Shown here: positions 29,341 to 61,032 of the stretch, one piece after another | How positions within the stretch are numbered: position 1 is the stretch's first letter | How the letters are laid out: each line of letters begins with the position of its first letter | DNA from: Candidatus Methylacidiphilales bacterium | GTDB lineage: Bacteria > Verrucomicrobiota > Verrucomicrobiia > Methylacidiphilales > JAAUTS01 | Length of the DNA stretch: 64,000 bases | Direction: 5' to 3' | Assembly (NCBI GenBank): GCA_028713655.1 | Contig: JAQTNW010000012.1 | Span: 1-64,000 of the forward strand | Position numbers and translations under genes: made by a program | Notes under the pieces: generated by a model | Seen by the model: only the letters and a program-made list of their open reading frames with translations | Databases searched by the model: none | Told to the model about the DNA's origin: nothing

Positions 29341-30573
29341 TTAAGGCGCCGAAACATCGATGCAGGCGCCCTCTTCGGAACTGCGTACGTAAATACAGCC
29401 GTTGCTCACAGCCGGAGTGGACCTGCAATCGCCCTTGACCACCGTGAAGCGGCCCAATTCCTTGTAAGCATCGGGCGCGGGTTCAACAACAACGAGGTCG
29501 CCTTTGTCCGACAGCGCGAGAACCTTGCCGCCGGCAACGATGGCATTGCCCTGGCCGAAGCCGGACTGAACCCACATGACCTTGCCCGTGGCAATTTCCA
29601 CGCACTTGAGCGGGCCAACTTTTTCCTGTTTAAAACTGAACATTCCATAGAGGTAACCGTCTCTGCAAACCGGTGTACTCCAATGGTTGGCCACTTCGAG
29701 ATTGCCGGGAGTCTGCCACAACTGCGTCGCGGTGAAGCCGGATCCTTGCCGGGCGATTTTACAAGCGCCGCCCCCCACATCGTAACCGGCCGAGCAATAG
29801 ACAATGTCCCCGCTGACCACAGGGGAAGCCGCAGTGGATGTTTTAAACTTGTAGGGAAACTTCCAAAGCAACTTGCCGTCCTTTGTCGAGAGCGATACGA
29901 GCCCGCTTTGGCAGAAAAAAATCACCTGTCGTTCGCCCAAAATGGTGGCCAGGACTGGCGTCGCGTGGGTGATCGCCTCGGTGCCGGTTTTCCAGCCAAG
30001 TTCCCCGCTTTTTTTGTTGAAGGCCAGCAGGGACTGGCCATCACCGCCGCCCATGACGAAAACCAGATCGCCATCGATCACTGGCGAAGCCGCGCTTTCC
30101 CAGCCGATATTGTGTGCCGCATATTCCTTGATAAGATCATGCGTCCAAAGGGAATTGCCCGTCGCTGCATCAAGGGCATGCAGCACCAGATCCTTGGTCA
30201 ACACGCAAACAACTCCATCGCTCTCGGCAGGTGTCGAATTGCCATTGCCCACCCCCAGATCCGCAAACCACAATTCCTTGCCTGTGGCCGGGTCGAGAGC
30301 CACGCAAACCTCGTGGGAAGCGCCGTTGATGGATCTCTCCACTTCAGTAAAGACCTTGCCGCCGCAAACTGAAAATGAGCCGAAACCGGATTTTGTCGGG
30401 ACTTTCCACAGCACCTTGGGAGGGCTGGCGGACCAATTCAGGTTCAAATTCTCCGTTGAAACGCCATCGGTGACTGAACCCCGGTATCCGGGCCAGTCTG
30501 CGGCCTGAATCACAGCAGGCTGCAGAGAGCACAGAAAGCCGATAACTGCGTAAAGGAGGGAGCGTGTTTTCAT
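29341..30573 (-). CDS. Secreted PQQ-type beta-propeller protein
   Basis: The 410-residue protein has a signal peptide ending near VIQA and then ADWPGYRG, the start typical of PVC-group BamB-like propellers. Blade motifs of the type ALDPATGKELW, ALDAATGNSLW and CVEIATGKVMW recur about every 45-50 residues. Such proteins are often labelled outer membrane assembly factor BamB or PQQ-binding, but they lack the catalytic features of quinoprotein dehydrogenases; the role is unknown, probably periplasmic binding or scaffolding. It is transcribed divergently from the redox operon at 30836. It is one of seven propellers within 32 kb. Confidence 0.87.
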   Translation of the reverse strand: MKTRSLLYAVIGFLCSLQPAVIQAADWPGYRGSVTDGVSTENLNLNWSASPPKVLWKVPTKSGFGSFSVCGGKVFTEVERSINGASHEVCVALDPATGKELWFADLGVGNGNSTPAESDGVVCVLTKDLVLHALDAATGNSLWTHDLIKEYAAHNIGWESAASPVIDGDLVFVMGGGDGQSLLAFNKKSGELGWKTGTEAITHATPVLATILGERQVIFFCQSGLVSLSTKDGKLLWKFPYKFKTSTAASPVVSGDIVYCSAGYDVGGGACKIARQGSGFTATQLWQTPGNLEVANHWSTPVCRDGYLYGMFSFKQEKVGPLKCVEIATGKVMWVQSGFGQGNAIVAGGKVLALSDKGDLVVVEPAPDAYKELGRFTVVKGDCRSTPAVSNGCIYVRSSEEGACIDVSAP

Positions 30574-30835: not shown

Positions 30836-32290
30836 ATGCCTGAAGAATCTGGCACACCCGGCGCCTGCCAATCCATTATGACTACCCCGCAACCGAATAA
30901 CTCATGGCGGCTGCAGATCCTCACCGCCCTGATTCTTTGCACCACGCTTGGTGCTGCGTTGGTCTTCATTCTCCGAGATAGCCGCCTGTTATCCGAATCC
31001 ATCAAGGAACGGCAACCTGGAATGGACCGCAATAGTACGCCGGGACAAGCCGATCAATCGTCCCCGTTTCTCTCCGGCAAGCTCATCGACGGCGCAGGGT
31101 TGCCGGCAACGCTGCCCGGCGCATGGCCCCGGTTTCGAGGACAGAACGGCGATGGCATCGCCTCCGACAACGTCAGCATAGGCCAAAAATGGACGCCGCT
31201 CTGGGGGGTTGACCTTGGCGAAGGCTACGCCGGCGCGGCTATACGTGACGGGCGGGTGTACGTACTGGATTACGACCAGAAAAATTTTGCCGATGCGTTA
31301 CGCTGTCTGTCTCTGGCCGATGGCAGGGAAATCTGGCGCTTCTCCTACCCCGTGAAGGTGAAGCGCAATCACGGCATGAGCCGGACAACACCGACACTGG
31401 CAGGCAAATATGTCATCTCACTCGGCCCAAAGTGCCACGTTGTCTGCGTCGATGCCACAACCGGACAATTTGTGTGGGGCATCGACCTTGTGAAGGAATA
31501 CAACGCCGAGGTCCCGGAATGGTACGCCGGGCAGTGCCCGCTTGTAGATGGCGACCACGTGATCCTTGCGCCAGGAGGCGACGCGTTGATGATCGCGGTT
31601 GAATTGGCCACCGGCAAAGTCATATGGAAAACAGCCAATCCGCACGATTGGAAAATGACACACTCATCGATTGTACCGATTGAGTTTGCCGGCAAGCGCC
31701 AATACGTTTATTGCGGCAGCCACGGTGTGATAGGCGTGGCGGCCAACGGCGGCGCGGTGTTATGGGAAACGGACAAATGGGTCATCTCGATCGCCACGAT
31801 CCCCTCGCCCGTTTACCTCGGCGACGGAAAGCTTTTCTTCTCCGGTGGTTATAATTCCGGGGCCAAAATGCTGCAACTCAGGGAGATCGACGGCAAAATT
31901 GCACCTGTGGAATTGTTCAGCCTTGCCGCAACCACATTCGGCGCAACACAGCAGACACCGATTCTTTACCAGAACCACCTCTACGGCGTGCGCCCCGACG
32001 GCCAGTTGACCTGCCTTGACTTGGCGGGCAAGGTGCTTTGGACCAGCGGAAGCAAGGACAAGTTCGGTCTCGGTCCGTTCCTGATCGCCGATCGTAAACT
32101 GTTTGTGATGAATGATGAAGGTGTGCTGACACTAGCCGAGGCAAACCCTGAGGAATATCGTCCCTTAGTGAAAAATCGCGTGCTCAACGGTCACGACTCT
32201 TGGGCGCCGATGGCGCTCGCGGGCAGCCGTTTGCTGGTTCGCGACCTGACACAAATGGTTTGTCTTGATATCACGGGAGGCAAGCCATGA
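30836..32290 (+). CDS. Membrane-anchored PQQ-type beta-propeller
   Basis: The 484-residue protein has an N-terminal membrane anchor (residues about 25-45), a linker to about residue 95, and a propeller beginning PGAWPRFRGQNGDGI. Blade motifs include CLSLADGREIWRF, VDATTGQFVWGID and VELATGKVIWKT. It is the first gene of an operon whose next gene overlaps it by ATGA. The start at 30836 is the first ATG; an internal ATG at 30878 would shorten the cytosolic tail only. The context of iron-sulfur and flavin proteins suggests a periplasmic redox-linked role, but no cofactor ligand is evident. Confidence 0.85.
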   Translation: MPEESGTPGACQSIMTTPQPNNSWRLQILTALILCTTLGAALVFILRDSRLLSESIKERQPGMDRNSTPGQADQSSPFLSGKLIDGAGLPATLPGAWPRFRGQNGDGIASDNVSIGQKWTPLWGVDLGEGYAGAAIRDGRVYVLDYDQKNFADALRCLSLADGREIWRFSYPVKVKRNHGMSRTTPTLAGKYVISLGPKCHVVCVDATTGQFVWGIDLVKEYNAEVPEWYAGQCPLVDGDHVILAPGGDALMIAVELATGKVIWKTANPHDWKMTHSSIVPIEFAGKRQYVYCGSHGVIGVAANGGAVLWETDKWVISIATIPSPVYLGDGKLFFSGGYNSGAKMLQLREIDGKIAPVELFSLAATTFGATQQTPILYQNHLYGVRPDGQLTCLDLAGKVLWTSGSKDKFGLGPFLIADRKLFVMNDEGVLTLAEANPEEYRPLVKNRVLNGHDSWAPMALAGSRLLVRDLTQMVCLDITGGKP

Positions 32291-33315
32291 AAAACAATGC
32301 AGAACTCAACCGCCGCAGTTTCCTGGGTGTCGCCGGCATAAGCCTGTTGGGCCTGACAGGCCTCACCGGTTGTACAAAACGCGGCAGCGGCTCAAAAACC
32401 GAAAAGCCGCCGCTCGATTCGCGATTCACGTACGACGTCAGCCAGTTCGAACACACCGATCCCGCATTATTGCTCTACCGGGAAACCGAATCCATCCCGG
32501 CCGGATTAGAAGACCCGAAATGCCTCGCCATCGGCCCGGACAACTCCGTTTTCATCGGAGGCGACAGCGCTGTGAAACAATTCGATCATACCGGCCAACT
32601 CCAATCGACTATTGCGCTCGCTGCCACGCCGTTCGCCCTCTGCGTCACTCGCGCGCGGCTCTGCGTTGCACTGAAGGATCACCTGGAGATTTTTGACGGC
32701 AATGGCAAGCCGATGACCCGCTGCGAATCACCCGGCGATAAAACCTACCTCACCGGTGTTGCCGACGCCGGAGACGCCATCTACCTGGCCGATGCCGGCC
32801 ATCGCGAGATCATTCGTTGCGACTCGAACGGCAAACCGCTCAGCCGGTTCGGACACCGTGGCAACGGCAATCCCGGATTTGTGATTCCAAGCCCATACTT
32901 CCATGTATTGTTAGGTGGCGACGGTCTGCTCTGGGTCAACAACCCCGGTCGCCACCAGATCGAAGCTTACACCACCGACGGCAAGTTTGAACTCGCTTGG
33001 GGCACACCCTCGATGGCAATTGAAGGATTCTGCGGTTGCTGCAATCCAGTCTATTTCACACGCAGGCGCGACGGCAAATTCGTCACCAGCGAAAAAGGCC
33101 TGAACCGGATCAAGATTTACGACGCAAAAGGCACCTTCGAGGGCGTCGTCGCCGGGCCAGAACTCCTCGTGAAGGATTTGGACCTTGCAAAAAAAGCGTG
33201 CGCCGATTGCCAGGTCGGTTTCGGATTCGACGTCGCCTGCGATTCCAACGGACGCGTGTTGGCACTCGATCCCGCGACAAAAAACATCCGCATTTTCACG
33301 CTGAAAACCGCATGA
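32287..33315 (+). CDS. Tat-exported NHL-repeat lipoprotein
   Basis: The 342-residue protein starts with a twin-arginine signal (RRSFLGVAG) that ends in a lipobox with C29 (GLTGC), so it is probably exported folded and lipid-anchored. The remainder is an NHL-type propeller with elements such as LAIGPDNSVFIGGD, IYLADAGHREIIRCD and RIKIYDAKGTFEGVV. Cysteines cluster at GFCGCCNP (near residue 243) and KKACADCQVGF (near residue 300), which could bind metal. It overlaps its neighbours on both sides by four bases. Tat export suits a protein that acquires a cofactor in the cytoplasm. Confidence 0.85.
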   Translation: MKNNAELNRRSFLGVAGISLLGLTGLTGCTKRGSGSKTEKPPLDSRFTYDVSQFEHTDPALLLYRETESIPAGLEDPKCLAIGPDNSVFIGGDSAVKQFDHTGQLQSTIALAATPFALCVTRARLCVALKDHLEIFDGNGKPMTRCESPGDKTYLTGVADAGDAIYLADAGHREIIRCDSNGKPLSRFGHRGNGNPGFVIPSPYFHVLLGGDGLLWVNNPGRHQIEAYTTDGKFELAWGTPSMAIEGFCGCCNPVYFTRRRDGKFVTSEKGLNRIKIYDAKGTFEGVVAGPELLVKDLDLAKKACADCQVGFGFDVACDSNGRVLALDPATKNIRIFTLKTA

Positions 33316-33500
33316 ACACCCAGCCTCAAACCCGTCGTAAATTCCTCGAGACCGCGCTTCGCACTGCATTGCTCTGCACGGCGGGCTTGGTTGGGATAGT
33401 CTTGTTTCGCCGCCGTGAGAACTGCACATCCCTCGGCGGGTGCGGCGGCTGCAATGTTTACGCCGATTGTTCATTGCCATGGCGGAAGGATAGACAATGA
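33312..33500 (+). CDS. 62-residue Tat-type cysteine-rich membrane peptide
   Basis: An ATG at 33312 overlaps the stop of the NHL gene (ATGA), and its own stop overlaps the ATG of the ferredoxin gene (ATGA). The 62 residues contain TRRKFLETALRTALL, a twin-arginine-like membrane segment, and a short tail with C38, C44, C47 and C53 (CTSLGGCGGCNVYADC). The coupling on both sides in the middle of a redox operon makes this a real gene. The four cysteines could hold a small iron-sulfur cluster or metal. I know no named family for it. Confidence 0.8.
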   Translation: MNTQPQTRRKFLETALRTALLCTAGLVGIVLFRRRENCTSLGGCGGCNVYADCSLPWRKDRQ

Positions 33501-34045
33501 ACCGCCGCGATTTTTTCCGCAACATGATCCGCGGCGCAACTGTATTGGGGTTGGGTGGCGTGTTCGTCGATTTGGTCCGCAAGGTGAAGGCTGATGGCAC
33601 AGTCTGGCAGATTGATCCATGGAAATGCATTCAATGCGGCCGCTGCGCGACCGAGTGCGTACTCGAACAGTCCGCGGTCAAGTGCGTCCACAGTTTTAAC
33701 ATGTGCGGTTACTGCCGGTTATGCACCGGCTACTTCGAGCCTCAACCGAACAAGCTCAATACCGCCGCCGAAAACCAGCTCTGTCCGACCGGCGCGATCT
33801 TCCGCACGTTCGTGGAGGACCCGTATTATGAGTACACAATCAACGAATCTCTCTGTGTCGGCTGTGCCAAGTGTGTCAAGGGATGCACGATGTTCGGCAA
33901 CGGTTCTCTCCACCTCCAAATCCGCCATGACCGCTGCCTCAACTGCAACGAATGCTCGATCGCCCGGGCCTGTCCTTCCGATGCCATCCACCGCGTCCCG
34001 GTTGCGCAGCCGTACAAATTCAAAAGCCGGGAGTCAACCTCATGA
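33497..34045 (+). CDS. Tat-type ferredoxin with four iron-sulfur clusters
   Basis: The 182-residue protein starts MNRRDFFRNMIRGA, a twin-arginine-like signal, then carries cysteine groups for about four [4Fe-4S] clusters: CIQCGRCATEC, CGYCRLC, CVGCAKCVKGC and CLNCNECSIARAC with partner CPSDA and CPTGA motifs. This is the pattern of electron-transfer subunits of the DmsB/HybA/NapG type. It overlaps both neighbours by ATGA. It probably works on the periplasmic side, passing electrons to or from the NapH-like membrane protein encoded next. Confidence 0.9.
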   Translation: MNRRDFFRNMIRGATVLGLGGVFVDLVRKVKADGTVWQIDPWKCIQCGRCATECVLEQSAVKCVHSFNMCGYCRLCTGYFEPQPNKLNTAAENQLCPTGAIFRTFVEDPYYEYTINESLCVGCAKCVKGCTMFGNGSLHLQIRHDRCLNCNECSIARACPSDAIHRVPVAQPYKFKSRESTS

Positions 34046-35307
34046 TCCTGTTTCTTGCCGCACAGCGCTTTCCGCCTCCCGAATTCAGCGAGACCGGCCA
34101 TAAGCTGCCGGGCTTTAACACTCCGCTGCCGCGCGGCCCATGGCTGGAGCACCTCGATGTCATCGTGCTGCTGGCCGCTCTGGCACTGGCGGCGTGGCTG
34201 GCGTTGCGGCGCCGCTCACGGCGCGGCCTTGTGGCGCTCGGGATTTTTTCGTTGTTGTACTTCGGATTCTGGAGGAAAGGTTGCATTTGTTCGATCGGCA
34301 GCATCCAAAATATGGCGCAGGGGCTCGCTGATTCATCATTTGGCGTGCCTGCAACGGTGTTGGCATTCGGGCTGGCTCCGCTGGTGTTCGCCTTGCTGTT
34401 CGGGCGCGTATTTTGTTCGGCGGTCTGTCCGCACGGGGCATTGCAGGATTTGATGTTGATCAAACCGGTCCGGGTGCCGGTGTGGTTGGAACACGGGTTG
34501 CGGCTGATTCCATACATTTATCTCGGGCTGGCGCTGGTTTTTGCGGCCACAGGCGGCGGGTATATCATCTGCCAGTACGATCCGTTCGTGACCATTTTCC
34601 GCTTAAGCGGCAGCGTATTGATGGTGGCGTGCGGCATTGGATTGCTTGTTCTCGGCATGTTTGTCGGACGGCCGTATTGCCGGTTCCTGTGTCCGTACGG
34701 CGTACTGCTCGGATTTGCATCAAGCGTTTCGAAGTGGCGGGTCCGGATCACGCCGGACACCTGCACGCAATGCAGGTTGTGTGAACAGTCCTGTCCCTTC
34801 GATGCAATCAACAAATCCACCATTGATGCGCCGTCGCGCTCGATGACGACGGACAAACGGCTGTTGGCGGCGATGATTCTGCTGCTGCCGGTACTACTCA
34901 TCGCAGGCGGGCTGCTTGGCGGAGTAACGGGGAAAAATCTGGCGCGCAAACACCGGATCGTGAACCTGGCCGAGCGGGTTTATCTTGAGGAAACCGGCAA
35001 GGAGTCGGGCACAACGGATGCATCGGCGGCGTTCCGTGTGACCGGTGAGCCAGTGGAGAATTTGTATGCCGACGCGCGGACAGTGCGAGACCGGTACGTG
35101 TTGGCGGGCCGGTTGTGCGGCCTGTGGATCGCACTGGTCATCGGAGGCAAACTGATCATGCTGGCAATCCGCCGAAAACGCCACGATTATGAAGCCGATC
35201 AAACCCGGTGCCTCGCTTGCGCACGCTGCTTCACAGATTGTCCACAAGAACTGCAACGGCTCGGGCTGTCTGTGCCCGAAGGTGTCCCACTGGCACCTCC
35301 CTTATGA
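34042..35307 (+). CDS. NapH/NosR-like membrane polyferredoxin
   Basis: The 421-residue protein (ATG at 34042 overlapping the ferredoxin stop) has about six membrane helices. Membrane-proximal cysteine motifs CSAVCPHG and CRFLCPYG are those of the NapH/NosR/RdxA group, and two ferredoxin-type motifs follow: CTQCRLCEQSCPFDAI near residue 247 and CLACARCFTDCP near the C-terminus. An extra GCICSIGS motif lies near residue 82. Proteins of this group move electrons across or along the inner membrane, often from quinol. Adjacent soluble ferredoxin and flavoprotein genes support such a role. The electron acceptor is not known. Confidence 0.88.
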   Translation: MILFLAAQRFPPPEFSETGHKLPGFNTPLPRGPWLEHLDVIVLLAALALAAWLALRRRSRRGLVALGIFSLLYFGFWRKGCICSIGSIQNMAQGLADSSFGVPATVLAFGLAPLVFALLFGRVFCSAVCPHGALQDLMLIKPVRVPVWLEHGLRLIPYIYLGLALVFAATGGGYIICQYDPFVTIFRLSGSVLMVACGIGLLVLGMFVGRPYCRFLCPYGVLLGFASSVSKWRVRITPDTCTQCRLCEQSCPFDAINKSTIDAPSRSMTTDKRLLAAMILLLPVLLIAGGLLGGVTGKNLARKHRIVNLAERVYLEETGKESGTTDASAAFRVTGEPVENLYADARTVRDRYVLAGRLCGLWIALVIGGKLIMLAIRRKRHDYEADQTRCLACARCFTDCPQELQRLGLSVPEGVPLAPPL

Positions 35308-37007
35308 ACGAAAAACAACGTCGGTCCATTTATAAGCTCGCACTACCGCTCACGACAGCGGCGGGGTTGTTTATCCTCTTGTTCAGCGGACTGCTGGCAT
35401 TTAACGAGGTGCGCGGCAAGGTTGCTACCCTGGTCAACTCAAAACAGGTCGTCCGCCTCCATGACGAACTGCGCAGTAGGCCAAAGGACGAAGCGTTGAA
35501 GGCGCAAATCCGCAAACTCGATCTCAAACTGCGCAAGGAAACGTTTTACCGGCTCCAGCTTTCACACGACACCGCGCGCATACTGCTCGCAGGTCTGGTT
35601 GTGTTTCTGGCAAGTGCCCATTTTGTGCGGACATCGCGCCGTCGCTTGCCGGATCTGCAGGCGTGGGGCGCGCGCAAGGCAGCGGAGGAGAAGCGCACAA
35701 TGACGCACGCCAGGTACGCGGTGGCCTGCATCATCGTGATGGTTTCGGTAACCGCAGTCGCCCTCTCGACGGAGCCGGTCAAACTGCCGGAAGCAAGTCC
35801 CGCCTCGCCGTCCGTTGCCACAGTGTCGGCTTTTCCGTCCGCGGATGAGATGCAGCTGCAGTGGCCATCATTCCGCGGCCCGAACGGATCTGGCATCGCG
35901 CCAAAAGCCACCGTGCCCGTTACATGGAACGGAAAGAGCGGGACAAACATCCGTTGGAAAACCGCGGTGCCCTTGTCCGGGTCGAGTTCGCCTGTGGTCT
36001 GGGACAAGGCCGTGTTCGTGACAGGCGCTGACGAAACGCAGAGCAGCGTGTTCCGCTTCGACGCCGATTCCGGCGCGCTTCTGTGGTCAGCCACGATCAA
36101 GCTCCCGGGTGGCGCGCGCCCTCCAAAACCGCAAGTTAACACCGAAACGAGTTTGGCCGCGCCAACGCCGGCCACCGACGGCCGGCGTGTTTATGCTTTA
36201 TTCCCGACGGGTGAGATTGCAGCCTTTGATTTTTCCGGCAAACAAATCTGGGCGCGCAACATCGGTCCGCTGGAAAATTCATACGGATATGCCGCGTCAC
36301 TGGCAATTTGTCAGGACCGGTTGCTGATCCAGATCGACTGCGGCCAGCCCGAGGACGGCAAGTCGAAGATGCTGGCGCTCAACACACAAACCGGCCAGCC
36401 GCTTTGGGAAACCAAACGTGATGTTGCCGGCTCATGGTCGTCTCCGATTGTGGCTAATATCGACGGCAAACCACAGTTAATCACTTGCGCCAACCCGTTC
36501 GTTATCGCCTACAACCCGGTTGACGGAAGGGAACTCTGGCGGAACAAATGCCTCGACAGCGATGTCGCGCCATCACCAATCGTGTCCGGCAACATGGTCG
36601 TAGCCACCGCGCCGAACAACAACATTGTCGGACTGCATCCCGGAGCAAAGGACCTCTCATGGAAAGTCGAGGAAGATGTACCGGATGCAACCAGCCCCGT
36701 TAGCGATGGCCAGCGGCTGTACATCATCAGCGGGGCAGGAATGCTAACCTGCTACGGCCTGCAGGGCGGCAAATCCGTCTGGACACACCAACTTGACGGC
36801 ACCTTCTATGCATCACCCACGATCGCAGGCAACGCGTTGATTCTTGTCAACCAAAAGGGCGCTTCATGGGTGATCGAAACCGGTAACGCATACAAGGAAC
36901 TCGGCAAGGGTGAACTTGGCGAGGAATGTTTCGCCAGCCCCGTACCGCTTGGCAAACGCATCTTCCTGCGAGGCAAGGAAAACCTGTTCTGTATCGAGAG
37001 CAAATGA
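35304..37007 (+). CDS. Membrane PQQ-type beta-propeller with N-terminal helices
   Basis: The 567-residue protein (ATG at 35304 overlapping the previous stop) begins with a helix at about 13-30, a charged coiled segment (about 35-85), a second helix at about 92-108 and a third hydrophobic stretch near 132-152. The propeller then starts at WPSFRGPNGSGIAPKA. Blade motifs include FRFDADSGALLWSA, ALNTQTGQPLWET and YNPVDGRELWRN. It appears to fuse a small membrane domain, perhaps partnering the polyferredoxin, to a periplasmic propeller. This architecture differs from the simple secreted propellers nearby. Confidence 0.85.
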   Translation: MNEKQRRSIYKLALPLTTAAGLFILLFSGLLAFNEVRGKVATLVNSKQVVRLHDELRSRPKDEALKAQIRKLDLKLRKETFYRLQLSHDTARILLAGLVVFLASAHFVRTSRRRLPDLQAWGARKAAEEKRTMTHARYAVACIIVMVSVTAVALSTEPVKLPEASPASPSVATVSAFPSADEMQLQWPSFRGPNGSGIAPKATVPVTWNGKSGTNIRWKTAVPLSGSSSPVVWDKAVFVTGADETQSSVFRFDADSGALLWSATIKLPGGARPPKPQVNTETSLAAPTPATDGRRVYALFPTGEIAAFDFSGKQIWARNIGPLENSYGYAASLAICQDRLLIQIDCGQPEDGKSKMLALNTQTGQPLWETKRDVAGSWSSPIVANIDGKPQLITCANPFVIAYNPVDGRELWRNKCLDSDVAPSPIVSGNMVVATAPNNNIVGLHPGAKDLSWKVEEDVPDATSPVSDGQRLYIISGAGMLTCYGLQGGKSVWTHQLDGTFYASPTIAGNALILVNQKGASWVIETGNAYKELGKGELGEECFASPVPLGKRIFLRGKENLFCIESK

Positions 37008-37010
37008 TCC

Positions 37011-39437
37011 ATGCACTCCCCAAACTACAACGCCTTTGTTGACGAGTTGCTCACGCGGACGGGCTGCGGGCCGGAGGCGACGATTCCGATTCTACAGTGC
37101 ATCCAGCGCGAATACCGGCACCTGCCCGAACCGGCGTTGCAGCATGTTAGTGAAATCACCGGCATCCGGCTTGCCGACTTGATCGGCGTCGCGACGTTTT
37201 ACCACCAGTTCCGGCTAGGCGAAGCCGGACGGCACACGATGCGGGTCTGCCACGGCACCGCCTGCCATGTCAAAGGCTCGGAAAACATCGACGACCATAT
37301 CCACAGGCAACTCAAAATCTCCGATGGACACGACACCAGCCCGAACAACGAGTTCACCGTCGAACGCGTCGCCTGTCTCGGTTGCTGCACGCTGGCGCCG
37401 GTCGTCAAGGTGGATCACACCACGTACGGCCGCCTGACCTCCGACACCATCAATGCGATGGTCGAGGATTTTCAGGCAACCCGTCACAAAACGATCGCCG
37501 ATGTGGACACCATCCCGGGACACCTCAATGGCAAGGGTGCTGAAATCCGTGTCGGCCTTGGTTCCTGTTGCATGGCAAAGGGCAGCGACAAATTGTTTCA
37601 TCAATTGCGCCGGACTGTGAAGGATTTTGGCATTGATGCATCGGTTAAACGTGTCGGCTGCGTCGGCATGTGCCACCAGACGCCCTTCGTCGAGGTCCGG
37701 CTGCCAGGCAGGCCTGCGGCGTTCTATGGAAAGGTCGATCCAGACGAAGCGGCGGGGATCGTGCGCCGCCATTTCCGGCCAATGAGCCTGCGTCGGCGGA
37801 TCGTTCGATGGACAGATCGGACGCTGGAACAACTCGTCACCGACGGCAACGACCGGAAAAATACCAGCGGTCACGCGCTCAATGTCAGCGAAAAAACAGT
37901 CGCAGCTTTTAACGAACGTCAGGTTCGCATTGCGACGGAAGGCTTGGGCGAGATGGATCCGCTCGACCTCGATGAGCACATCGCGCACCAGGGGTTCACC
38001 GCGCTCCGCCGGGTACTCGGCAGCAATCCGGAGGAGATCATCTCCACGATCACCCAAAGCGGCCTCCGTGGACGCGGCGGTGCGGGATTTCCGACCGGCG
38101 AGAAATGGGCGCGCGCGCGGGCGGCGTTGGCGCCGGATGGTGTGAAGTACGTGATTGTCAACGGCGATGAGGGCGATCCCGGAGCTTTCATGGACGGGAT
38201 GCTGATGGAATCATTCCCGTACCGCGTGATTGAGGGGATGCTGATTGCGGCCTGCTGCATTGGCTCCACTGAAGGTTACATCTATGTTCGGGCCGAGTAC
38301 CCGCGCTCCGTCGCACGGTTGCGCGCGGCAATTGCAAAAATGGAGGAACGCGGGTTTCTTGGAACCGGCATCATGGGCGGCAATTTTAATTTCAAGCTGC
38401 GTCTTTTCGAGGGTGCCGGGGCTTTCGTGTGCGGCGAGGAAACGGCATTGATCGAATCAATCGAAGGCAAGCGCGGCGTCCCCCGCATGAAACCGCCCTA
38501 CCCGGCCGATTGCGGACTGTGGCAAAGGCCGACGTTGATCAACAACGTTGAGACGTTTGCGATGGTACCATGGATCATCCGCAACGGCGCCAGGGCATTT
38601 GCCGCGCATGGCACGGAAAAAAGCAAGGGCACAAAGGTATTCTCACTTGCCGGAAAAATTAGCAGGGCAGCACTCATCGAGGTGCCGATGGGCATCACGA
38701 TCCGCGAGATCGTCGAAGACATTGGCGGCGGCATGGCAAACGGCAGGCAATTCAAGGCTGTGCAGATCGGCGGCCCGTCCGGGGGTTGCATCCCGGCTGC
38801 GTTGGATCACACGCCGGTCGATTACGAGGCATTGACGGCGGCCGGGGCGATCATGGGGTCGGGTGGAATGATCGTGCTCGACGAGGACGACTGCATGGTG
38901 GATATGGCGCGATATTTTATTACGTTTCTGCGCGACGAATCGTGCGGCCAATGCACATTCTGCCGCATCGGCACGATGCGGATGTACGAGATTCTCGACA
39001 AGCTTTGCCAGGGAAAAGGCCGGAGCGCCGACCTCGATGAGCTCCTGCAACTGGCCTCTCTCACCACCCAGGGCAGCATCTGCGGCCTTGGTCGGAGCGC
39101 TCCAAATCCGGTCCTCACCACGTTGCGGTATTTCCGAAATGAGTACGAGGCACACATCGCGGGCCGTTGTCCGGCCGGGAAATGCAAGCCGCTCATCCAG
39201 TACGTCGTCCAGGACAACTGCACCGGCTGCACCATTTGCGCCCAGCATTGCCCCGTCAATGCCATCCCGATGACACCCTACAGCCGTCACCAGATCAATA
39301 CGGATCTCTGCACTCGCTGCGACGTTTGCCGCGCCGACTGCCCCGAGAACGCCATCACCATCATGAGCGGCGGAATCAAGTGCCACGAACACTCGCACAA
39401 GGAACCAGCGCCCGAAGCGCTGGCCCAACATGAATAA
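37011..39437 (+). CDS. NuoE-NuoF-type fusion flavoprotein (HndA/HndC-like)
   Basis: The 808-residue protein joins several modules. Residues 1-155 are NuoE-like with C80, C85, C122 and C126 for a [2Fe-2S] cluster. A second thioredoxin-like ferredoxin domain with GSCCMAKGS and GCVGMC follows to about residue 260. The NuoF-like core carries GRGGAGFPTGEKW (FMN/NADH site), GDEGDPGAFMDG and the N3-type cluster motif SCGQCTFCRIGTM. Two C-terminal [4Fe-4S] motifs, CTGCTICAQHCPVNAI and CTRCDVCRADCPENAI, complete it. It is predicted to oxidise or reduce NAD(P)H and pass electrons to ferredoxins. Similar subunits occur in bifurcating hydrogenases and formate dehydrogenases, but no hydrogenase subunit is in the window. 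Confidence 0.92.
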   Translation: MHSPNYNAFVDELLTRTGCGPEATIPILQCIQREYRHLPEPALQHVSEITGIRLADLIGVATFYHQFRLGEAGRHTMRVCHGTACHVKGSENIDDHIHRQLKISDGHDTSPNNEFTVERVACLGCCTLAPVVKVDHTTYGRLTSDTINAMVEDFQATRHKTIADVDTIPGHLNGKGAEIRVGLGSCCMAKGSDKLFHQLRRTVKDFGIDASVKRVGCVGMCHQTPFVEVRLPGRPAAFYGKVDPDEAAGIVRRHFRPMSLRRRIVRWTDRTLEQLVTDGNDRKNTSGHALNVSEKTVAAFNERQVRIATEGLGEMDPLDLDEHIAHQGFTALRRVLGSNPEEIISTITQSGLRGRGGAGFPTGEKWARARAALAPDGVKYVIVNGDEGDPGAFMDGMLMESFPYRVIEGMLIAACCIGSTEGYIYVRAEYPRSVARLRAAIAKMEERGFLGTGIMGGNFNFKLRLFEGAGAFVCGEETALIESIEGKRGVPRMKPPYPADCGLWQRPTLINNVETFAMVPWIIRNGARAFAAHGTEKSKGTKVFSLAGKISRAALIEVPMGITIREIVEDIGGGMANGRQFKAVQIGGPSGGCIPAALDHTPVDYEALTAAGAIMGSGGMIVLDEDDCMVDMARYFITFLRDESCGQCTFCRIGTMRMYEILDKLCQGKGRSADLDELLQLASLTTQGSICGLGRSAPNPVLTTLRYFRNEYEAHIAGRCPAGKCKPLIQYVVQDNCTGCTICAQHCPVNAIPMTPYSRHQINTDLCTRCDVCRADCPENAITIMSGGIKCHEHSHKEPAPEALAQHE

Positions 39438-41019
39438 TTCCATCACCCTGACCATCGACAGCCAATCCGTCACTGTACCGGCCGGCAGCACAGTACTCGA
39501 TGCCGCGCGCCAGTTGGGGCTGAATATTCCAACCCTCTGCCACCTCGCCGGCGTGAAGGAAAACCGGCCGTCATGCATGGCATGCGTTGTGCGAATCGGC
39601 AATGACCCGCGTCTGTCGCCGTCGTGCTCGACGAAAGTCGCCGCAGGCATGGTTGTCGCCAGTGAAACGCACGAAGTCAAATCTGCGCGCAAGGCGGCGA
39701 TGGAACTCCTGTTCAGCGATCATCTCGGCGATTGCGTTTCCGTCTGTCAGCGCGTTTGTCCAGCCCGGCTCCAGATTCCCGCCACCATCCGGCTCGTCGC
39801 GGGTGGCAGGATGCGCGAAGCCATCGCGCTGGTGAAACAAAACGTTGTGTTCCCCGGTGTGATGGGCCGGATCTGCCGCGCTCCGTGCCAGGCCGGCTGC
39901 CGCCGTGGCAAATACGACGGCGCCGTGGCGATCCAATTGATCGAACGCGAAATCTCAAACCAGGATTTGGCCGCAGCCGAGCCGTTTACACCCGCCTGCG
40001 CGGCACCGACAGGCAAACGCATCGCCATCGTCGGCGCCGGAGCGACCGGTTTGAGCGCCGCGTTTTTCCTGATGCAATCCGGCCATTCCTGTACCGTTTT
40101 GGACGATCACGACAAACCAGGCGGCCATATGCGCTATGGCGTTCCGGATACAGAGTTGCCCCGGGCGGTACTCGACGGCGAAATTGAAGTCATCAAACGG
40201 CTTGGCCTCCAACTACGCCTGAACATGCGCCTTGGACGGGACATCCGCCTGGAAGAGCTCCGGCAACAATTTGACTCGGTAATCATTTCCGTCGGCAACA
40301 TGCAAAAAACAAACCCCGCCGGACTCGGTGTCGAGGCCACGGCACGCACCATTCGCATTGATTCGTCCACCTACCAGACCAGCGTCCCCGGCGTATTCGC
40401 CGCAGGCAGTGCAATCCGCAGCGGTTATGATCCCGCGCGCTCGGTCGGCGATGGACGGATTCTGGCGGAGTGTGTGGACAGTTTCCTAAACGGACGGGAG
40501 CATCATGTCGGCCAAAAGGATTTCACCTCGACGATTCCAAAACTGCCCACGGAGGAATATCAGGAGCTGGCAAAGGGCGCGGTCGGGGTGCTGAGTGTAC
40601 GGGAGTTAATCACGGAAGCCGAGATTGCCGCAGGCCGTTGCTGCCATTGCGACTGCCGTTCGGCCGGCAATTGCCGGCTCCGCATCTTTGCGGAAGCGTA
40701 CCAGGTGGACCCAAAAGCCTATCAGGGCGAACATCGCCGCAGGTTCGAGTTTATTCGCCAGCCGGCCGGGGTGATCTTCGAACCCGGCAAGTGCATCTCA
40801 TGCGGCATCTGCATCGAACTGGCCTCGCAGGCCCGTGTCCCCCTCGGCATGACATACATCGGGCGCGGGTTCGACTTGAAAATCGGCGTGCCGCTCAACG
40901 GCCCGCTCGCCGACGGCCTGCAACAAGTGGCGGAAGATTGCGTGAAACATTGTCCCACAGGCGCCCTGGCGTTCGAGGACGAATCTAAAAACGCCATCAA
41001 AAATTCACGCCGGCCCTGA
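39430..41019 (+). CDS. [2Fe-2S]/GltD-like iron-sulfur flavoprotein lacking an NADPH domain
   Basis: The 529-residue protein has an N-terminal NuoG-type [2Fe-2S] domain (C37, C49, C52, C66), a cysteine-rich linker of the GltD type (CVSVCQRVCPARLQIP and CRAPCQAGCRRG), an FAD-binding fold (RIAIVGAGATGLSAAFFL) and C-terminal iron-sulfur motifs (CCHCDC, CISCGIC and CVKHCPTGAL). Compared with glutamate synthase small subunits, the second Rossmann domain that binds NADPH is missing: only about 30 residues separate ISVGN from GVFAAGS. It overlaps the NuoEF-like gene by eight bases and presumably works as its partner. Its 3' end overlaps the convergent TonB receptor gene by 23 bases. Confidence 0.87.
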   Translation: MNNSITLTIDSQSVTVPAGSTVLDAARQLGLNIPTLCHLAGVKENRPSCMACVVRIGNDPRLSPSCSTKVAAGMVVASETHEVKSARKAAMELLFSDHLGDCVSVCQRVCPARLQIPATIRLVAGGRMREAIALVKQNVVFPGVMGRICRAPCQAGCRRGKYDGAVAIQLIEREISNQDLAAAEPFTPACAAPTGKRIAIVGAGATGLSAAFFLMQSGHSCTVLDDHDKPGGHMRYGVPDTELPRAVLDGEIEVIKRLGLQLRLNMRLGRDIRLEELRQQFDSVIISVGNMQKTNPAGLGVEATARTIRIDSSTYQTSVPGVFAAGSAIRSGYDPARSVGDGRILAECVDSFLNGREHHVGQKDFTSTIPKLPTEEYQELAKGAVGVLSVRELITEAEIAAGRCCHCDCRSAGNCRLRIFAEAYQVDPKAYQGEHRRRFEFIRQPAGVIFEPGKCISCGICIELASQARVPLGMTYIGRGFDLKIGVPLNGPLADGLQQVAEDCVKHCPTGALAFEDESKNAIKNSRRP

Positions 41020-59835: not shown

Positions 59836-61032
59836 ATGAAAACCATTGCCATCACCCTGCTTCTTCTCTGCACCGGGTTCGCACAAGCCGCCGACTGGCC
59901 ACAATGGCGCGGACCAAACCATGACGGCATTTCCACCGAGACCGGCTGGTCCACGCAGTGGAATGCAGACGGGCCGAAGCAATTGTTCAAACTCAACGTG
60001 GGCACAGGTTGTTCATCCGTCGCAGTGAGCCAAGGGCACTTGTACACGATTGGCAACACAAACAACACCGACACGGTCCGCTGCCTCGATGCGGCAACAG
60101 GCAAGGAAATTTGGAAACAGTCGTACCCCTGCCCGCTCGACCCCAACTCATTTGAGGGAGGCCCCGGCGCGACGCCGGCAGTGAATGCCGATCGTGTATA
60201 CACGATGAGCCGGGCCGGAGATTTGCATTGCCTCGACGCTGCGACGGGCAAGGTCGTCTGGACAAAAAATCTTGTGAAAGACTTCGGAGGCAAGGTGCCG
60301 AAATGGGGTTATGCCGGATCACCTGTTGTGCTTGAAAAATGCGTGATTCTCGATGTCGGCGCGCCGGGCGCAGCGACTGTGGCGCTCGACAAGACAACCG
60401 GTGAAATCGCATGGAAGAACGGTGATGAAGAGGCCGCTTACGCGACACCCCTGCCCTTTGAGTTCGGCGGCAAAAAATATGTCGCGCTGTTTGATGCGTT
60501 CGGTCTGGTGATACGCGAGGCCGACGGCGGCAAGACGGTGGCGAAGCAGGAATGGAAAACCAATTACGACGTCAACGCCGCAACGCCGATCATCAGCGGT
60601 GACAAACTTTTCGTGTCCAGCGGCTACGGGAAGGGCGCCGCACAGTTTCAGTTCACCGGCAGCGAGTTGAAATACATCTGGCAGACCAAAAAGATGCGGA
60701 ACCATTTTAACAGTTGCGTACTGTGGCAGGGATTCCTGTACGGGTTCGACGACACCAAGCTCGCCTGCCTCGACTTCGCCACCGGCGACGTGAAATGGGT
60801 GCAGGAAGACCTCGGCAAAGGCTCGTTGATGCTGGCCGACGGCAAGCTTATCATTCAATCGGAAAATGGCGACCTCGTGATTGCCAGCGCCGCACCGGAC
60901 GCTTTCAAGGAACTGGCGCGCGCCAAGGTGCTCGATCAACGCTGCTGGGTTGTCCCCGTACTCGCCAACGGCCATATTTACTGCAAGAACAACGTCGGCG
61001 ATCTGGTTGCCTTGGACGTCAGCGGCAAGTAA
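59836..61032 (+). CDS. Secreted PQQ-type beta-propeller protein
   Basis: The 398-residue protein has a signal peptide (MKTIAITLLLLCTGFAQA) followed by ADWPQWRGPNHDGIS. Blade motifs are CLDAATGKEIWKQ, CLDAATGKVVWTK, ALDKTTGEIAWKN and CLDFATGDVKWVQ. AAGGAAA precedes the ATG. It closes the long operon, 19 bases after the ligase gene, and ends 12 bases before the convergent permease gene. It is most like the propellers at 29341 and 43373, which share signal peptide, DWPxxRGP start and length. Confidence 0.88.
   Translation: MKTIAITLLLLCTGFAQAADWPQWRGPNHDGISTETGWSTQWNADGPKQLFKLNVGTGCSSVAVSQGHLYTIGNTNNTDTVRCLDAATGKEIWKQSYPCPLDPNSFEGGPGATPAVNADRVYTMSRAGDLHCLDAATGKVVWTKNLVKDFGGKVPKWGYAGSPVVLEKCVILDVGAPGAATVALDKTTGEIAWKNGDEEAAYATPLPFEFGGKKYVALFDAFGLVIREADGGKTVAKQEWKTNYDVNAATPIISGDKLFVSSGYGKGAAQFQFTGSELKYIWQTKKMRNHFNSCVLWQGFLYGFDDTKLACLDFATGDVKWVQEDLGKGSLMLADGKLIIQSENGDLVIASAAPDAFKELARAKVLDQRCWVVPVLANGHIYCKNNVGDLVALDVSGK

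Follow-up and report, generated by a model that had tools for sequence, protein, structure and literature searches.

A conserved small gene, encoding a Tat-type cysteine peptide, linked to an NHL-ferredoxin-NapH operon in Verrucomicrobiota and Planctomycetota

The window analysed here, a stretch of 64,000 nucleotides from a Candidatus Methylacidiphilales bacterium (contig JAQTNW010000012.1 of assembly GCA_028713655.1), carries a conserved operon, PQQ-NHL-peptide-ferredoxin-NapH-PQQ-NuoEF-GltD. Its genes, all on the plus strand, and the features of its smallest member are as follows.

30836-32290 (+): PQQ-type beta-propeller protein a (PQQa), with BamB-like repeats
32287-33315 (+): NHL-like beta-propeller protein, with a Tat lipoprotein-like N-terminus and a GCCNP motif
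33312-33500 (+): small gene for a 62-aa Tat-type membrane-anchored cysteine-tetrad peptide, from frame reading and conservation in relatives
33330-33347 (+): twin-arginine motif T-R-R-K-F-L, residues 7-12 of the peptide, from the sequence and a 31-homologue alignment
33357-33407 (+): hydrophobic segment, residues 16-32, then RRR, as read from the sequence
33423-33470 (+): cysteine tetrad C38-x5-C44-x2-C47-x5-C53, from the sequence, the alignment and gap counts
33497-34045 (+): Tat four-cluster ferredoxin with 16 invariant Cys, the partner in fusions
34042-35307 (+): NapH/NosR-like membrane ferredoxin, start read from the sequence
35304-37007 (+): PQQ-type beta-propeller protein b (PQQb), with N-terminal hydrophobic segments
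37011-39437 (+): fused NuoE/NuoF-type flavoprotein with a C-terminal ferredoxin domain
39430-41019 (+): Fer2/NuoG-like plus GltD-like flavoprotein

A further PQQ-repeat protein is encoded just upstream on the opposite strand (29341-30573, minus). The hydrophobic segments of PQQb precede its propeller repeats, whereas PQQa lacks such segments.

The sequence-only reading had proposed a 62-residue frame coupled by four-base overlaps to the genes on both sides, and the window bears this out: the frame runs from an ATG at 33312 to a stop ending at 33500 (62 aa, MNTQPQTRRKFLETALRTALLCTAGLVGIVLFRRRENCTSLGGCGGCNVYADCSLPWRKDRQ), the NHL gene ends at 33315 to give an ATGA overlap at 33312-33315, and the ferredoxin starts at 33497 to give another at 33497-33500. 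The same 4-nt overlap is found at PQQa/NHL, NHL/peptide, peptide/ferredoxin, ferredoxin/NapH and NapH/PQQb. ATGA also stands at the end of the peptide gene, permitting the ferredoxin start to overlap, at 29 of 41 separate-form loci, a set that includes loci outside the 61-genome set described below. A longer open frame overlaps upstream of the peptide ATG. The predicted twin-arginine-like membrane segment and cysteine tail are likewise present, as R-R-K-F-L with one hydrophobic segment and as Cys38, Cys44, Cys47 and Cys53 in exact C-x5-C-x2-C-x5-C spacing. Only one of the 695 stop-to-stop frames of 50 or more aa in the window, that of the peptide, has this spacing. A search through 986,360 bases (10,267 frames), covering the loci of the 61 genomes, for RRx[FLWM] with C-x(3-11)-C-x2-C-x5-C after it gave 37 matches; 36 belong to the peptide family and one lies at window position 60103 on the minus strand.

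The peptide has the sequence make-up of a Tat substrate, its twin-arginine motif preceding a hydrophobic segment. In an alignment of 31 homologues (separate forms picked with the cysteine pattern, three-cysteine forms excluded), R8 is invariant and R9 is kept in 90% or more, the second Arg being replaced in three peptides (RQ, RG and RK). The hydrophobic segment looks uncleaved, with no AxA, and holds an extra cysteine, Cys22, that is not conserved in this alignment. An AlphaFold model of the 62-aa peptide has a helix over residues 8-40, with pLDDT of 88-89 across residues 11-30. Against the Tat signal model TIGR01409 (cut-off 16.7), the homologue L109 passes at 16.8 and the window peptide, at 10.2, does not; TatC was found in the peptide's own genome. 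The probable destination of the peptide is the outer face of the inner membrane. The Tat system transports folded proteins, and this route therefore suits cofactor loading before export.

To define the distribution of the peptide in the phylum, genomes were collected through the neighbouring ferredoxin. A first scan of genome contigs gave 16 loci, and a search of 387 phylum genomes at E <= 1e-20 gave 61 genomes, the window's own included. The neighbourhood of the ferredoxin was read in all 61; one (G168) starts at a contig edge, leaving 60 assessable. The peptide is present in 46 of these, linked or fused with the NHL-ferredoxin-NapH genes: as a separate gene in 36, fused to the ferredoxin in eight and displaced, beside the NHL-like gene, in two (G063 and G245). 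One of the 36 separate forms (G107, contig edge next to NHL) was read by profile search only. The expectation that the small frame would recur in the operons of relatives thus held, since it is in frame in all 46 with its cysteines kept, apart from four peptides with three cysteines. The opposite outcome, loss of the frame or a break in it within homologous operons, was also looked for; the frame is mostly conserved, and no peptide was found in 14 of the 60 assessable ferredoxin-bearing genomes. Ten of these 14 have the NHL gene, and four (G155, G262, G312 and G186) have neither NHL nor PQQ beside the ferredoxin, the contig being short in G186 and ending 1.9 kb downstream in G262. The peptide is therefore not indispensable and, given the ten genomes with NHL, electron flow cannot need it everywhere. 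Nei-Gojobori dN/dS was 0.10-0.55 in 14 close pairs, indicating purifying selection on the peptide (15 pairs were tried; the pair of the window peptide and L010 was left out because dS was saturated). A profile match in G278 was rejected: it lacks a twin-arginine region, and no gene of the operon was found there.

In Planctomycetota, too, the peptide occurs next to this ferredoxin. Its profile gave 25 matches at E <= 1e-4 among 294 Planctomycetota genomes, one of which (G587) was rejected because the match falls on the ferredoxin's own Tat segment. The ferredoxin is present in 31 of the 294 genomes and in 23 of the 24 with an accepted peptide match; in the 24th (G556), the contig edge comes right after PQQa-NHL-peptide. 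Seven of the Planctomycetota peptides were inspected by eye. Together with conservation in the phylum, this recurrence supports the proposal that the small frame is a genuine gene encoding a Tat-type cysteine peptide: it is a conserved coding gene linked to the NHL-ferredoxin-NapH system.

The operon itself (30836-41019) is patchily distributed. Among 60 family and order relatives, own genome included, a close ferredoxin was found only in the own genome and a 45% relative in two, and ferredoxins with 58-85% identity occur in MAGs of other Verrucomicrobiota, Lentisphaerota, Kiritimatiellota and Planctomycetota. This patchiness may reflect horizontal transfer or loss.

The peptide had also been described as lying between two Tat-exported redox proteins, a claim that stands for one neighbour and is conjectural for the other. 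The ferredoxin is a redox protein, with 16 cysteines that are invariant in 36 aligned sequences and suffice for four [4Fe-4S] clusters; its separate form bears a Tat/membrane segment of its own. The NHL protein matched no Pfam family at E <= 0.001, and a redox role for it is a conjecture from its invariant paired-cysteine site, GCC[NS]P, which all 56 homologous frames carry (21 of them as CGCC). Another ferredoxin-NapH pair, which has diverged (36-52% identity), is present at five loci (L102, L103, L104, L105 and L106); their genomes also have the main ferredoxin, and no small peptide lies near the diverged pair.

Fusion and gene splitting both bear on the partners of the peptide. At eight loci (L062, L064, L065, L066, L067, L078, L080 and L090) it forms the N-terminal part of an in-frame fusion with the ferredoxin, its Tat segment replacing the ferredoxin's own, with no second Tat signal between the parts. 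On a careful tree of 74 ferredoxin cores, from which the paralogs L102-L106 were left out, as they were from the counts, the fused state requires at least three changes. A single fused clade was also rejected (AU p 0.00045 for all eight; 0.00054 for six, without L065 and L090), indicating that fusion or fission occurred more than once. Other fusions in the operon join PQQa with NHL (L064 and L078) and the ferredoxin with NapH (L084). In two split operons, one per phylum (G245 and G683), the peptide gene lies behind NHL on one contig, and the ferredoxin and NapH genes are on another; in G063 and G503, the peptide gene is upstream of NHL. Since the peptide is fused to the ferredoxin at some loci and stays with NHL when the operon is split, it appears tied to both and looks like a bridging subunit.

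The four cysteines of the tail (C38, C44, C47 and C53) are invariant across the 31 aligned separate homologues, which were picked with the cysteine pattern. Across 56 peptides, the second gap is always 2 and the third is 5 in 53, and the first ranges from 3 to 11 unless the first Cys is absent. Gaps of 5-2-5 occur in 28 of the 56, 6-2-5 in nine, 4-2-5 in six, 11-2-5 in four, 3-2-7 in three, and 9-2-5 and 7-2-5 in one each; the four peptides that lack the first Cys keep the 2-5 gaps and three cysteines. The cluster loop of endonuclease III and MutY, family PF10576 (EndIII_4Fe-2S), is similarly spaced. In the DNA repair enzyme endonuclease III of Deinococcus, a [4Fe-4S] cluster is bound by C199, C206, C209 and C215, that is, C-x6-C-x2-C-x5-C as compared with C-x5-C-x2-C-x5-C in the peptide, and loss of the first ligand in a C199 mutant gives a [3Fe-4S] form (PMC9268735); in the peptides, it is likewise the first cysteine that is missing in four of the 56. 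The peptide differs in having no DNA glycosylase domain within its 62 aa and in bearing an export signal. Membership in that family was rejected and the likeness is one of spacing only, as PF10576 gave five matches at E <= 10 in the peptide's own genome, the peptide not among them. From the cysteine pattern and context, the cofactor is probably one [4Fe-4S] cluster. Models offer no reliable site geometry: the tail has pLDDT of about 45-64 (peptide mean 68.8) and the fused L078 model a mean of 60.5, with no reliable cysteine site. Foldseek of the low-confidence L078 model, which is not to be relied on, returned nothing at E <= 0.001, its best match (E 0.0074) being 9mqx_E, a tungsten aldehyde oxidoreductase's four-cluster subunit; the peptide profile had no match among solved structures.

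These observations suggest that the peptide is most likely a Tat-inserted, membrane-anchored minimal metal-binding protein, probably of the [4Fe-4S] type. The cysteine tail would take up its cofactor in the cytoplasm, most likely one [4Fe-4S] cluster, and the peptide would then be inserted via Tat, its uncleaved signal serving as the anchor and its cluster facing the periplasm. In that position it could be an electron step or a docking piece, with the NHL-like propeller on one side and the four-cluster ferredoxin on the other. We judge it somewhat better than an even chance that the peptide serves a conserved redox complex of the inner membrane as its minimal metal-binding subunit, bridging the propeller and the four-cluster ferredoxin. 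The NuoEF and GltD flavoproteins of the operon suggest NADH as the cytoplasmic partner, and an electron path might link NuoEF/GltD in the cytoplasm, the NapH-like protein in the membrane, the ferredoxin, the peptide and the propeller, running in either direction. A bolder version, which we offer tentatively and think less probable than its failure, is that NADH electrons run through NuoEF/GltD, the NapH-like protein, the Tat ferredoxin and the one-cluster peptide to a paired-cysteine periplasmic propeller, in an undescribed haem-free conduit of Planctomycetota and Verrucomicrobiota. If so, this would be a respiratory route without cytochromes, with the peptide as its smallest piece.

A different role for the same tail, that its cysteines hold zinc or a non-redox Fe-S site and that the peptide is an anchor or assembly factor docking the ferredoxin to the propeller with no electrons moved, is rather unlikely in our estimate. 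The loose first gap (3-11), the occasional loss of the first Cys and the absence of the peptide from 14 of 60 genomes are in keeping with it, and fusion to the ferredoxin suits an anchor equally well; however, the tail retains three cysteines and an unchanging C-x2-C core amid otherwise variable positions, an anchor alone is unneeded because the separate ferredoxin has its own Tat/membrane segment, and zinc alone does not call for Tat export. Less probable still is a thiol-disulfide protein, whose CxxC and flanking cysteines would alternate between the dithiol and disulfide states on the periplasmic side, possibly in partnership with the vicinal CC of NHL. Such a role would accord with the CxxC core in 56 of 56 peptides, with GCC[NS]P in 56 of 56 NHL frames and with the peptide gene remaining beside NHL in split operons, but the C-terminal Cys, not required by a CxxC redox site, is as conserved as the CxxC, no thioredoxin-like family was matched, export is by Tat rather than Sec, and the GCC motif is retained in the ten genomes that have NHL and no peptide. 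Finally, it is scarcely credible that the frame arose by chance or is a degenerate copy of the Tat signal that the ferredoxin itself bears: although the peptide profile weakly matches that segment (1.3e-4, G000) and a longer overlapping frame lies upstream of the ATG, the conserved Cys tetrad, purifying selection, fusions and presence in two phyla refute this.

The electron-transfer system around the peptide and ferredoxin is little-studied, and with the peptide a conserved redox operon across Verrucomicrobiota and Planctomycetota gains a subunit that had been missing; a complex expressed without it would miss a part. Fusion and gene splitting reveal which two proteins the peptide joins, and the natural fusions (e.g., L078) are ready one-chain constructs for cofactor testing. 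The combination of junction overlap and cysteine pattern also provides a way to find small Tat proteins.

The window peptide matched no curated family (Pfam, NCBIfam) above cut-off, and in the limited open-access literature we found no description of the operon or the peptide, which does not imply absence from print. Among known families, formate_TAT (TIGR02811, "formate dehydrogenase region TAT target") is likewise a small Tat-signal peptide beside genes of cofactor enzymes. It matches the signal part of L109 (E 0.0024), but the 18.1 bits are far below the cut-off of 48.45 and the match stops before the cysteine tail; three of 31 peptide members matched at E <= 0.1, the window peptide not among them. 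The FeoB-associated Cys-rich membrane protein (PF12669) is also small, with one membrane segment and a Cys-rich tail, whereas the peptide has a twin-arginine region and its gene neighbours form the NHL/ferredoxin operon; two of 31 members matched PF12669 weakly at E <= 0.1 (best 0.0058) and the window peptide did not. HiPIP, a small single-cluster [4Fe-4S] electron carrier, would be alike in role if the peptide cofactor is right. Its motif is C-x2-C-x(8-16)-C-x(10-13)-G-(W/Y)-C (PMC11138216), a spacing that the peptide gaps of 3-11, 2, and 5 or 7 do not follow. The NapG/NapH, MauM/MauN and NosR modules share with the window operon a Tat ferredoxin adjoining a NapH-like membrane ferredoxin, although the window NapH-like protein, at 54.8 bits, is far below the family cut-off of 213. 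To our knowledge, none of these modules has such a small peptide. Compared with them, the window operon has propellers and NuoEF/GltD flavoproteins in addition, along with the small peptide. The peptide is a new family of small Tat-targeted redox-complex peptides with an unusual cysteine tetrad.
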